Program-made: the position numbers and the translations under genes
NCBI RefSeq assembly: GCF_013201825.1
Contig: NZ_CP053836.1
Location: 1,488,001 to 1,552,000, forward strand
DNA length: 64,000 nt
Direction of reading: 5' to 3'
Origin: Halarcobacter ebronensis
GTDB lineage: Bacteria; Campylobacterota; Campylobacteria; Campylobacterales; Arcobacteraceae
The notes under the pieces: model-generated
Told to the model about the DNA's origin: nothing
Database searches by the model: none
What the model saw: only the letters and a program-made list of their open reading frames with translations
Shown: positions 53,403 to 56,314 of the stretch, in pieces
Position numbering within the stretch: the first letter of the stretch is position 1
Layout of the letters: each line of letters opens with the position of its first letter

Positions 53403-55517
53403 ATGATTGAAAATATACTCAAGCGTGACGGTAAATATGAGAAATTTCAGGACTTTAAAATAAAAGATGCCATAAAAAAGGCTTTTAGCAGTGTTCATGT
53501 AACATATGATGCTGTTATTTATTTAAATGTCCTCGAAGAGTTAAGTAAAAAGAGAGTAGTTGCAGTTGAAGATATTCAAGATTCTATTGAACAAGAGCTT
53601 TTTAAAGCAAGATATTATGATGTAATGAAATCTTTTATGCTATACAGGCACATGCATAAAATGCAAAGGGAACATCTTTTAGGTTTAAATGAAGATACAA
53701 CTTATGTAAATTCAACTCAAACTATAGAAGAGTATATAAATGGTACAGATTGGAGAATAAATGCAAACTCAAATACAGGTTATTCTCATGCTGGACTTAT
53801 AAATAACAGTGCTGGAAAAATTATTGCAAATTATTGGTTAGATAAAATTTATTCAAAAGAGGAAGGTTATGCCCATAGAAATGCAGATTATCACATTCAT
53901 GATTTAGATTGTTTAAGTGGTTATTGTGCAGGATGGAGTTTAAGAGTTTTACTTGATGAAGGGTTTAACGGAGTGAGAGGAAGAGTTGAGAGTAGAGCTC
54001 CAAATCACTTTAGAGAAGCTTTAGGTCAAATGGCAAATTTTTTAGGTATTTTACAAAGTGAATGGGCTGGAGCTCAAGCTTTTTCATCATTTGACACCTA
54101 TTTGGCTCCTTATGTTTTTAAAGACAAACTATCATTTAAAGAGATTAAAAAAGCTATTAGAAGTTTTGTCTATAACTTAAATGTTCCTGCACGTTGGGGA
54201 CAAAGTCCTTTTACAAATATTACTATAGATTGGACAGTTCCAGAGGATTTAAAAGGACAAATACCAACAAGAAATCAAGAACACATTTTTAAAAATATTG
54301 AAGACAAACAATTATTAGAAAAAGCCGTAGAGAGAGGGTATAGCTCTTTAGTTGATATGACATATAAAGCTTTTCAAAAAGAGATGAATTTAATCAACAA
54401 AGCCTATTATGAAGTAATGACAGAAGGAGATCAAACAGGACAACCTTTTACTTTTCCTATCCCAACGGTTAATATAACTGAAGATTTTGATTGGTATGGA
54501 GAAAATACAGATTTACTTTTTGAAAATACAGCAAAGATTGGTTCTTCATATTTTCAAAACTTTATTGGAAGTCAATATGTAAAAGATGAAAATGGAAAAC
54601 TTATACCAAATGAACGTGCATATAAACCAGGTCATGTAAGATCAATGTGTTGTAGATTGCAACTTGACTTAAGAGAACTTCTCAAAAGAGGAGGGGGACT
54701 TTTTGGTAGTGCTGAGATGACAGGAAGTGTTGGTGTTGTTACAATAAATATGGCAAGATTAGGATATTTGTACAAAGGTAATAAAGAGGCTCTTTTTAAT
54801 AGACTTGAAGAGTTGATGGATTTAGCAAAATCAACTTTAGAGAAAAAAAGAGTTTTTATAAATGATTTATATGAAAGAGGACTATTCCCATACACAAAAA
54901 GATACCTTCCAAGTTTCAATAATCACTTTTCAACAATTGGTGTAAATGGAATAAATGAGATGCTTATTAATTTTAGTGAAAAAGAATACAATATTTCTAA
55001 ACCAATTGGTATTTCATTTGCAAATGAGATATTAGATTTTATGAAACAAAAAATGGTTTCTTATCAAGAAGAGACAGGAAATTTATATAATCTTGAAGCA
55101 ACGCCAGCAGAGGGAACCACATATAGATTTGCGAAGGAGGATAAAAAAAGATACAACGATATTTACCAAGCAGGTTTTGGAGAAAATATATTCTATACAA
55201 ACTCTACCCAACTACCAGTTGATTTTACAGATGATATTTTTGAAGCATTAGATTTACAAGATGGTTTACAAGGTAAATATACAGGTGGTACAGTACTTCA
55301 CTTATATATGAGAGAGAGAATAAGCTCAACAGAAGCTTGTAGAAAGCTAATTAGAAATGTTATTTCAAATTATACTCTACCATATATAACAATTTCACCA
55401 GTTTTTTCTGTGTGTCCAAAACATGGATATATTAGCGGTGAATATGAATATTGTCCAATATGTGATGAAGAAATTTTAGAAGAGGAGTTAAAAAACAATG
55501 AAAAGCTTAGAGCCTAA
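53403..55517 (+). CDS. nrdD: Anaerobic ribonucleoside-triphosphate reductase, large part lacking the glycyl-radical tail
   Basis: A 704-residue class III reductase. An ATP-cone regulatory domain covers about residues 3-92, followed by the ten-stranded barrel with active-site regions DCLSGYCAGWSL near 178 and SMCCRLQLD near 413. The zinc-finger region (CPKHGYISGEYEYCPIC) is near 670-686. In other NrdD proteins the finger is followed by the R-x2-G-Y radical site; here the ORF ends about 18 residues after the last cysteine with no such motif. The motif lies on the overlapping 52-residue ORF that follows. The encoded enzyme therefore appears to be split. Confidence 0.93.
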   Translation: MIENILKRDGKYEKFQDFKIKDAIKKAFSSVHVTYDAVIYLNVLEELSKKRVVAVEDIQDSIEQELFKARYYDVMKSFMLYRHMHKMQREHLLGLNEDTTYVNSTQTIEEYINGTDWRINANSNTGYSHAGLINNSAGKIIANYWLDKIYSKEEGYAHRNADYHIHDLDCLSGYCAGWSLRVLLDEGFNGVRGRVESRAPNHFREALGQMANFLGILQSEWAGAQAFSSFDTYLAPYVFKDKLSFKEIKKAIRSFVYNLNVPARWGQSPFTNITIDWTVPEDLKGQIPTRNQEHIFKNIEDKQLLEKAVERGYSSLVDMTYKAFQKEMNLINKAYYEVMTEGDQTGQPFTFPIPTVNITEDFDWYGENTDLLFENTAKIGSSYFQNFIGSQYVKDENGKLIPNERAYKPGHVRSMCCRLQLDLRELLKRGGGLFGSAEMTGSVGVVTINMARLGYLYKGNKEALFNRLEELMDLAKSTLEKKRVFINDLYERGLFPYTKRYLPSFNNHFSTIGVNGINEMLINFSEKEYNISKPIGISFANEILDFMKQKMVSYQEETGNLYNLEATPAEGTTYRFAKEDKKRYNDIYQAGFGENIFYTNSTQLPVDFTDDIFEALDLQDGLQGKYTGGTVLHLYMRERISSTEACRKLIRNVISNYTLPYITISPVFSVCPKHGYISGEYEYCPICDEEILEEELKNNEKLRA

Positions 55518-55656
55518 TAAATTGAAAGATAAGAGAACAAAGTGTATAGTTTACACTAGAGTTATGGGATACCACAGACCAGTTGAGAGTTTCAACATAG
55601 GTAAGAAGGGTGAGCATAGACAAAGGGTAAAATTTATTGAAAAAGATTATCTATAA
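55498..55656 (+). CDS. Separate glycyl-radical segment of NrdD (52 aa)
   Basis: A 52-residue ORF whose YTRVMGYHRPVESFNIGKK segment (residues 19-37) matches the C-terminal radical-bearing tail of class III reductases; G24 in RVMGY is the expected radical glycine. It overlaps the nrdD end by 20 nt in the +1 frame. It has its own AGAGGAG ribosome site (55481-55487) 10 nt before the ATG. It overlaps the nrdG start by 20 nt. An in-frame stop at 55489-55491 blocks any longer upstream reading. It could act as a detachable radical subunit, by analogy with the PFL spare part YfiD/GrcA, or reflect a frameshift. Confidence 0.85.
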   Translation: MKSLEPNKLKDKRTKCIVYTRVMGYHRPVESFNIGKKGEHRQRVKFIEKDYL

Positions 55657-56314
55657 TATTACGCCTTTTACAACTGTTGATTATAAAGATCATCTATCTT
55701 GTATTGCATGGTTTGTATCATGCAATATGAGATGTAAATACTGTTATAACTCTCAAATTGTCAACGCAAAAAGTGGAAACTACACACCTTTGGATTTAAT
55801 TGCCTTTTTAAAAAAGAGAATAGGGCTTTTAGATGCGGTTGTATTAAGTGGAGGTGAAGCAACAAATCACAATCTTCTTAATTTATGCAGAGTAGTTAAA
55901 AAACTTGGATATAAAATAAAACTAGATACAAATGGTCTTAAACCAGATGTTATTAATGAGCTTATACAAAATCAACTAATAGATTTTATTGCCTTAGATT
56001 ACAAAGCTCCACAAAATAAATTTACAAATATAACTAAAATCAATTCAAATAAAAAATTTACAGAGACTTTGGATATGTTAATAAAAGATGATTTCCCTTT
56101 TGAAGTTAGAACAACAGTACATCCAAACCTAATTGATGAAGAGGATATAAACTCTATTATTTTAGATTTGGAACAAAGAGAGTATAAAGGTACTTACTAT
56201 TTACAAAACTACCTTCATACCCAAGAGAATCTTGGAAATATGCAAGAGCCAAACAAAATATTAAATAAAACTCTTTTGAATAGCTCTTTAAAAATAGAGT
56301 ATAGAAATTACTAA
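55637..56314 (+). CDS. nrdG: Anaerobic ribonucleotide reductase activase (radical SAM)
   Basis: A 225-residue radical SAM activating enzyme that generates the glycyl radical on NrdD. The CxxxCxxC cluster is at C29, C33 and C36, and the SAM-binding GGE motif is in VVLSGGEAT near 73. Start is TTG at 55637 with AAAGGG nine nt upstream, inside the end of the 52-residue radical-segment gene. It is longer than E. coli NrdG (154) and resembles the NrdG2-type activases of about 230 residues. It ends 5 nt from the convergent NapC-like gene. Confidence 0.9.
   Translation: MKKIIYNITPFTTVDYKDHLSCIAWFVSCNMRCKYCYNSQIVNAKSGNYTPLDLIAFLKKRIGLLDAVVLSGGEATNHNLLNLCRVVKKLGYKIKLDTNGLKPDVINELIQNQLIDFIALDYKAPQNKFTNITKINSNKKFTETLDMLIKDDFPFEVRTTVHPNLIDEEDINSIILDLEQREYKGTYYLQNYLHTQENLGNMQEPNKILNKTLLNSSLKIEYRNY

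Follow-up and report, generated by a model that had tools for sequence, protein, structure and literature searches.

A class III ribonucleotide reductase with its radical glycine on a separate small open reading frame in Halarcobacter ebronensis and other bacteria

The question raised by the locus

Described class III ribonucleotide reductases (RNRs) carry the radical glycine within NrdD itself, and it is there that oxygen cleaves the chain (PMC3019208; all articles cited by PMC number are represented here by excerpts). How can such an enzyme work if NrdD ends before the glycine? This question is raised by an nrdD–nrdG locus of Halarcobacter ebronensis located in the stretch analysed here, hereafter the window, which comprises 64,000 nucleotides of contig NZ_CP053836.1 (positions 1,488,001 to 1,552,000). 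Between nrdD and nrdG, a separate open reading frame (ORF) of 52 codons carries the glycyl loop. Very probably, these 52 codons are translated separately, and their product and NrdD together make up a class III RNR of two polypeptides whose radical-glycine subunit would be exchangeable. The evidence is drawn from sequence throughout, namely the separate ORFs, their conservation, the selection acting on the small one, the independence from frame and gene order, and the existence of stand-alone copies. The split is real and widespread, and it represents a variant of class III RNR whose radical subunit is also encoded by itself on phage contigs and on plasmids.

The split nrdD locus

All genes of the locus are on the forward (+) strand. 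The nrdD gene (53403..55517) encodes a catalytic subunit of 704 residues with ATP-cone, barrel, and zinc site, as judged from ORF reading, profile searches, and a structure model. The protein matches the NRDD domain PF13597 at 529.8 bits, scores 402 on the NrdD equivalog TIGR02487 against a cut-off of 326.35, and has a PF03477 ATP-cone (60.6 bits). The predicted model, computed for NrdD alone, is of moderate quality (mean pLDDT, the predicted local distance difference test score, of 73) and served fold assignment only; its best 21 structural rows were all class III RNRs, with Z-scores from 23 to 27. The codons of Cys416-Cys417 in the SMCCR motif (54648..54653) specify residues invariant in 34 of 34 sequences. 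The second of these cysteines is probably the thiyl-radical cysteine, as suggested by an alignment to Prevotella copri NrdD via the fused relative L155. Near the end of the protein, the zinc-site segment (55413..55463) contains C671, H674, C684, and C687, likewise invariant in 34/34. These are the likely metal ligands, which would give the arrangement C-x2-H...C-x2-C and not four cysteines. The last ligand sits 17 residues before the NrdD end, and a pattern search of the 704 residues for R-x2-G-Y was negative, so the radical glycine is not in the same polypeptide.

It is found instead on the small ORF (55498..55656), which bears YTRVMGYHRPVESFNIGKK with an RVMGY motif and the radical glycine Gly24 (codon 55567-55569). 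This ORF overlaps nrdD by 20 nt in the +1 frame (55498..55517), and the sequence AGAGGAG, 10 nt 5' of its ATG (55481..55487), is a likely ribosome-binding site. At its other end, it overlaps by 20 nt with nrdG (55637..56314), which starts with TTG and encodes a radical-SAM activase of 225 residues. NrdG matches TIGR02495 (NrdG2) at 180.5 bits against a cut-off of 131.15; a dedicated activase is thus present. The initial annotation had described a NrdD ending past its zinc region without R-x2-G-Y, a radical motif on a separate ORF with a +1 overlap, its own ribosome site, and the overlap with nrdG, all of which agree with the pattern search and the reading of the sequence.

The family profiles are divided at this very place. 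PF13597 breaks at position 531, with 2-531 on NrdD and 531-562 (of 562) on the small ORF; TIGR02487 breaks at 549, with 2-549 on NrdD and 549-580 (of 581) on the small ORF. Since both profiles are cut at one point into complementary pieces, the split is more than a chance arrangement.

The small ORF is present as a single copy in the genome, which is one contig of 3.17 Mb and also encodes a single additional large RNR subunit, matching PF02867 and hence of class I or II. The initial annotation had likened the small protein to YfiD/GrcA, the spare part of pyruvate formate-lyase (PFL). This comparison is retained as a possible way of working and abandoned as a matter of descent. The small ORF gave no match to PFL-type glycyl families at E-values up to 1; its matches were to NrdD families, apart from one unrelated row at chance level. 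PF01228, the PFL-type glycyl domain, had no match in the whole genome and was found in 3 of 14 control genomes. Given its absence here, NrdD is the only candidate partner among these two families.

Conservation and expression of the small ORF

The overlapping ORFs in different frames could in principle result from a sequencing indel at 55492-55517 that broke one gene in two, which would produce just such a +1 difference and overlap. The same arrangement in relatives leaves this explanation a vanishing probability. In the genus, a match to the small ORF was found in 16/16 genomes searched, the one studied here included, and in the loci read from 14 of the other 15 genomes the ORF is separate in every case, overlapping nrdD by 20 nt in 13 and by 4 nt in one. 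The split also recurs in 59 of the 75 Campylobacterota genomes with NrdD and in 10 of 27 from Bacteroidota, and the frames, gaps, and intervening genes differ among the split loci.

The small ORF is under purifying selection. Among 15 sequences of the genus including that of the window (105 pairs, 39 codons outside the overlaps), the proportion of non-synonymous differences (pN) was 0.045 and that of synonymous differences (pS) 0.592. A search with a pattern that left the glycine position free and partly fixed other motif residues yielded 161 distinct loops. The 125 that covered the full frame were kept, leaving out the other 36, and glycine was present in 125 of these 125.

A Shine-Dalgarno-like site precedes 90 of 104 small ORFs, the start being taken as the best-scoring one. 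As a control, 3663 ATGs lying within the nrdD genes of Campylobacterota loci were scored, and such a site was present at 6.5%, or 17.6% when the best of three was taken. Eleven of the 14 small ORFs lacking such a site belong to Bacteroidota loci.

Distribution and gene arrangements

The small protein was detected in 84 of 104 genomes of the same family. Of the 150 Campylobacterota genomes searched, 75 contain NrdD, which is split in 59, fused in one frame in 15, and partial in one. The 59 split cases comprise 42 with a separate second match, one (G015) from the family search only, and 16 in which the match was joined across stops and then read; in all 16, one or more stops separate the zinc site from the glycyl ORF. 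In Bacteroidota, 395 genomes gave 28 with a match, 27 of them over the cut-off, with 10 split and 17 fused. Plasmids add further cases, and Pseudomonadota and phyla beyond Campylobacterota and Bacteroidota were sampled via plasmid records only: 15 of 28 matching records were read, of which 11 are split (one, from Thiothrix, with a broken nrdD frame), two are fused, and two carry the glycyl part alone. In 10 of these 15 records, the small gene is annotated as "nrdD". Annotation pipelines thus already see a gene here, and a separate glycyl ORF explains the short "nrdD" genes in databases.

The recurrence suggested as a check by the initial annotation is therefore borne out across phyla, with the glycine conserved and frames and spacing varied. 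It had also regarded a continuous NrdD in relatives as speaking against the split. Continuous forms do exist (15/75 in Campylobacterota, 17/27 in Bacteroidota); they do not point to a read error here because at least one of them is nested among split ones.

Arrangements were surveyed in 110 loci (L001-L110, where L001 is the window and some genomes occur twice), 104 of which have both parts. The two ORFs overlap in 89 of these and are separated by 9-25 nt in five, 82-110 nt in five, and 390-852 nt in another five. The small ORF lies in the +1 frame relative to nrdD in 67 loci, in +2 in 32, and in the same frame in five. The stop codon of nrdD is TGA in 55, TAA in 35, and TAG in 14, counts that include three broken nrdD frames (L025, L049, L050).

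In several genomes, the two parts are further apart. A NAMPT gene lies between nrdD and the small ORF in L156, and L157 has the same spacing. In L158, the order is nrdD, nrdG, a cytochrome-c-like ORF (named by eye), and the small ORF. In G250, nrdD and the small ORF are 5.3 kb apart with four ORFs in between, and a sensor kinase is encoded by the first of these. Genome G179 has nrdD at 104 kb without a small ORF and a small ORF beside nrdG at 9 kb, 95 kb apart, and in G399 and G400 the two parts are on different contigs.

These arrangements bear on the idea that programmed +1 frameshifting or stop read-through joins both ORFs into one product. The 20-nt overlap in the +1 frame in the window would suit frameshifting, and read-through would suit the same-frame Campylobacterota genomes, 15 of 16 of which have a single stop between the parts (the 16th has two), as well as L152 and L153, which likewise have a single stop. 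Against this speak the three relative frames, the lack of a single kind of stop codon, gaps of up to 852 nt with whole genes between, reversed order, a separation of 95 kb, and the ribosome-site-like sequence at 90 of 104 small ORFs. A joined product is therefore regarded as highly improbable. Together, recurrence, varied arrangements, and purifying selection led to the rejection of read error, frameshifting, and decay.

Stand-alone copies on viral contigs, in prophage-like regions, and on plasmids

The strongest support for an exchangeable radical subunit comes from copies that stand alone. All 29 viral contigs found (L111-L139) carry the glycyl ORF, and on 28 of them, all but L128, no NrdD body exceeded the cut-off anywhere on the contig, which may in each case be a fragment. 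One of these 28, G271, has an extra 15-bit partial NrdD match, and on the viral contig G253 the profile misses a glycyl ORF that tblastn detects. A scan of neighbours, with one large protein taken from each of ten loci, returned terminase (L113), tape-measure protein (L126, L136), a head-and-packaging family named endolysin (L132), and DNA polymerase (L116); three proteins matched no family, and two matched only families of unknown function. When 140 ORFs from 24 of the 29 viral loci were searched, integrase, terminase, tape-measure, portal, and endolysin families were among the 25 matches listed of 243.

The phage protein family phrog_4132, of unknown function, was matched by 10/10 glycyl ORFs tested, including that of the window and one from a plasmid. 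Three glycyl peptides were used as queries against named phages: one, at E-values up to 0.01, had no match, and the other two, at E-values up to 1, had four and three weak partial matches. Where annotated, these fall in genes named as the NrdD enzyme, and none of the named phage records searched showed a glycyl part standing alone.

Extra copies also occur in prophage-like regions of bacterial chromosomes, near genes for terminase and endolysin (L151), a tail chaperone (L150), and a weak spanin match (L149). G179 has three glycyl copies, one beside nrdG and two in phage-like regions. In a metagenome-assembled genome that also has a normal split locus, a stand-alone glycyl ORF lies just 3' of XhlA and a reverse-transcriptase gene (PF00078; L160:1179-3106, the same stretch as L097). 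Among plasmids, that of Allochromatium tepidum carries the glycyl ORF and lacks an NrdD body over its entire record, and that of A. vinosum carries it with no NrdD annotated within 4 kb.

Proposed mode of action and biological role

In the proposed two-polypeptide enzyme, ATP-cone, barrel, active-site cysteines, and zinc site would all come from NrdD, and the Gly24 loop and the C-terminal tail from the 52-residue protein. Judging from known class III RNRs, the small protein would dock where the C-terminal glycyl loop of an ordinary NrdD sits, NrdG would place the radical on Gly24 while acting on NrdD, and Gly24 would transfer the radical to the active-site cysteine in each turnover. The C-terminal domain of P. 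copri NrdD is highly mobile and combines the zinc site, a buried Gly711 loop, and a surface tail (PMC11226230). Here the chain is broken between the zinc site and the loop, so that a mobile element is set free and the zinc half is kept on NrdD. More speculatively, oxygen would cut the small protein only, and a fresh copy would replace the cut one. The sacrificial piece would then be a product of 52 residues, cheaply replaced. YfiD is reported to be robustly activated only with its cut partner enzyme, a requirement that stops a radical-bearing peptide from moving about on its own (PMC8683613); by analogy, a similar safeguard would be expected for the small glycyl protein.

The variant resembles the class III NrdD enzymes (PF13597, TIGR02487; PDB 8p23, 4coi, 1h78) in its ATP-cone, barrel, active-site cysteine, zinc site, R-x2-G-Y loop, and adjacent NrdG. 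It differs in that the loop and tail, which in P. copri form one C-terminal domain with the zinc site (PMC11226230), are a separate polypeptide here. YfiD/GrcA and T4 Y06I are also small separate proteins with a radical glycine, one of them phage-encoded too (PMC8683613); unlike the 52-residue protein, they are of about 14 kDa, and their domain has no sequence match to it. Moreover, the partner of the PFL spare parts has a glycine of its own, whereas NrdD here has none. A catalytic RNR chain in two consecutive ORFs is also known from NrdJa/NrdJb of Pseudomonas aeruginosa (PMC4009431, PMC9669993), but that enzyme is of class II and uses cobalamin. Phage nrdD genes may likewise be broken up by inteins, introns, or fragmentation (PMC3653736). 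Those cases involve insertions or unexplained fragmentation, whereas in the present case each part is a conserved gene, and the window has no insertion at the break.

What the free subunit is for can be read in several ways. It may be an ordinary obligatory subunit resulting from a neutral fission that became fixed in these lineages, with no role in oxygen repair. The nrdD overlap in 89 of 104 loci, which suggests coupled synthesis, the single copy in the H. ebronensis genome, and the occurrence of fused forms favour such a history; the extra phage, prophage-like, and plasmid copies are hard to explain if free subunits bring no benefit. This reading is a serious contender, if judged somewhat short of an even chance. 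Alternatively, the small protein could be chiefly a spare part for oxygen-cut glycyl loops, as YfiD and T4 Y06I are for PFL. Both are autonomous glycyl-radical proteins, spare parts for other glycyl radical enzymes have been speculated upon (PMC8683613), and G179 has three copies. However, the NrdD of the window lacks a radical glycine, and without the peptide there would be no activity at all, whether or not damage had occurred; as that genome has just one small ORF, the peptide would be an obligatory part and not a spare. A role chiefly as a spare part is accordingly held as a tentative, rather doubtful option.

A broader reading, about evenly balanced between true and false, sees the radical part of this class III RNR as a free, interchangeable, mobile subunit, with host NrdD using phage, prophage, or plasmid copies to regain or boost deoxynucleoside triphosphate synthesis, be it following exposure to oxygen or while a phage replicates. 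It is speculative that the host NrdD is served by phage and plasmid copies. If true, there would be a spare-part system outside PFL and a role for phrog_4132. Validated spare parts are limited to those of PFL, and others are considered possible (PMC8683613); the split NrdD is a concrete candidate for a non-PFL spare part, testable in Cupriavidus necator H16. It also provides a natural two-part system in which to study glycyl-radical transfer.

Plasmid pHG1 of C. necator H16 carries the split pair and nrdG, and nrdDG of this strain is reported to be essential for complete denitrification (PMC2864759, citing Siedow et al. 1999). The same article lists NrdDG of C. metallidurans as Rmet_5137 and Rmet_5139; the number passed over between them probably belongs to the small ORF. 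In the excerpts of the open-licence PMC literature searched, a split NrdD is not described; Siedow et al. 1999, on nrdDG of C. necator, lies outside this coverage and may mention it.

Several points weigh against the two-polypeptide enzyme. Fused forms occur in the same subfamily, so the split is not required, and in Bacteroidota the fused NrdD is the commoner form (17/27). The NrdD model is weak around the active site, with residues 407-419, 428-432, and 434-440 at pLDDT below 50. Lastly, the functional statement for C. necator is second hand, since PMC2864759 cites it from Siedow et al. 1999.

Evolution of the split

A quick tree was built from 69 NrdD bodies after removal of the columns holding the C-terminal trait; four of its rows have long end branches and nine have an odd residue composition. 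The split forms of Campylobacterota, Bacteroidota, and plasmids, together with four fused rows, form one group (support of 94 in the SH-aLRT, a Shimodaira–Hasegawa-like approximate likelihood ratio test). Within it, the fused L154, which is placed with Campylobacter rows, has the split row L163 as its sister (96). This placement suggests re-fusion or repeated splitting, and the nesting of a fused form among split ones ties both parts to one function. At least five changes between split and fused forms are needed on the tree, three of them forced by the starred branches. A single unbroken origin, with all split rows in one clade, was rejected (p-AU, from the approximately unbiased test, 1.4e-41). 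Fused relatives are under-represented in the tree because the split peptide served as bait when its sequences were collected.

Further genes and loci

Two ORFs occupy the gap between nrdD and the small ORF in four Campylobacterota loci: a PAC_bac-like one (PF21758) and a NifU_N/IscU-like one (PF01592), at L064:3212-3980, L072:3170-3947, L074:3139-3964, and L076:3132-3942. Both were identified by Pfam in L072, and the second as NifU_N in L064 and L076 as well; the remaining gap ORFs of L064, L074, and L076 were assigned by position and look. Class II RNR tails with an IscU-like domain have been reported (PMC9669993), and by analogy the NifU_N/IscU-like ORF beside a split nrdD may be a meaningful association.

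In a Bacteroidota genome with a fused NrdD, an ORF of 94 residues combines a zinc-type motif with the glycyl loop beside an nrdG-like ORF (L191:2367-3096, minus strand). It could represent either an NrdD in decay or an entire domain serving as a spare, and it was left out of the evidence. On a plasmid of Azospira (L189:1-8111), the genes for ribonucleoside-diphosphate reductase alpha, nrdD, the glycyl ORF, nrdG, and the beta subunit form one block, which adjoins an integrase and a Tn3 transposase.

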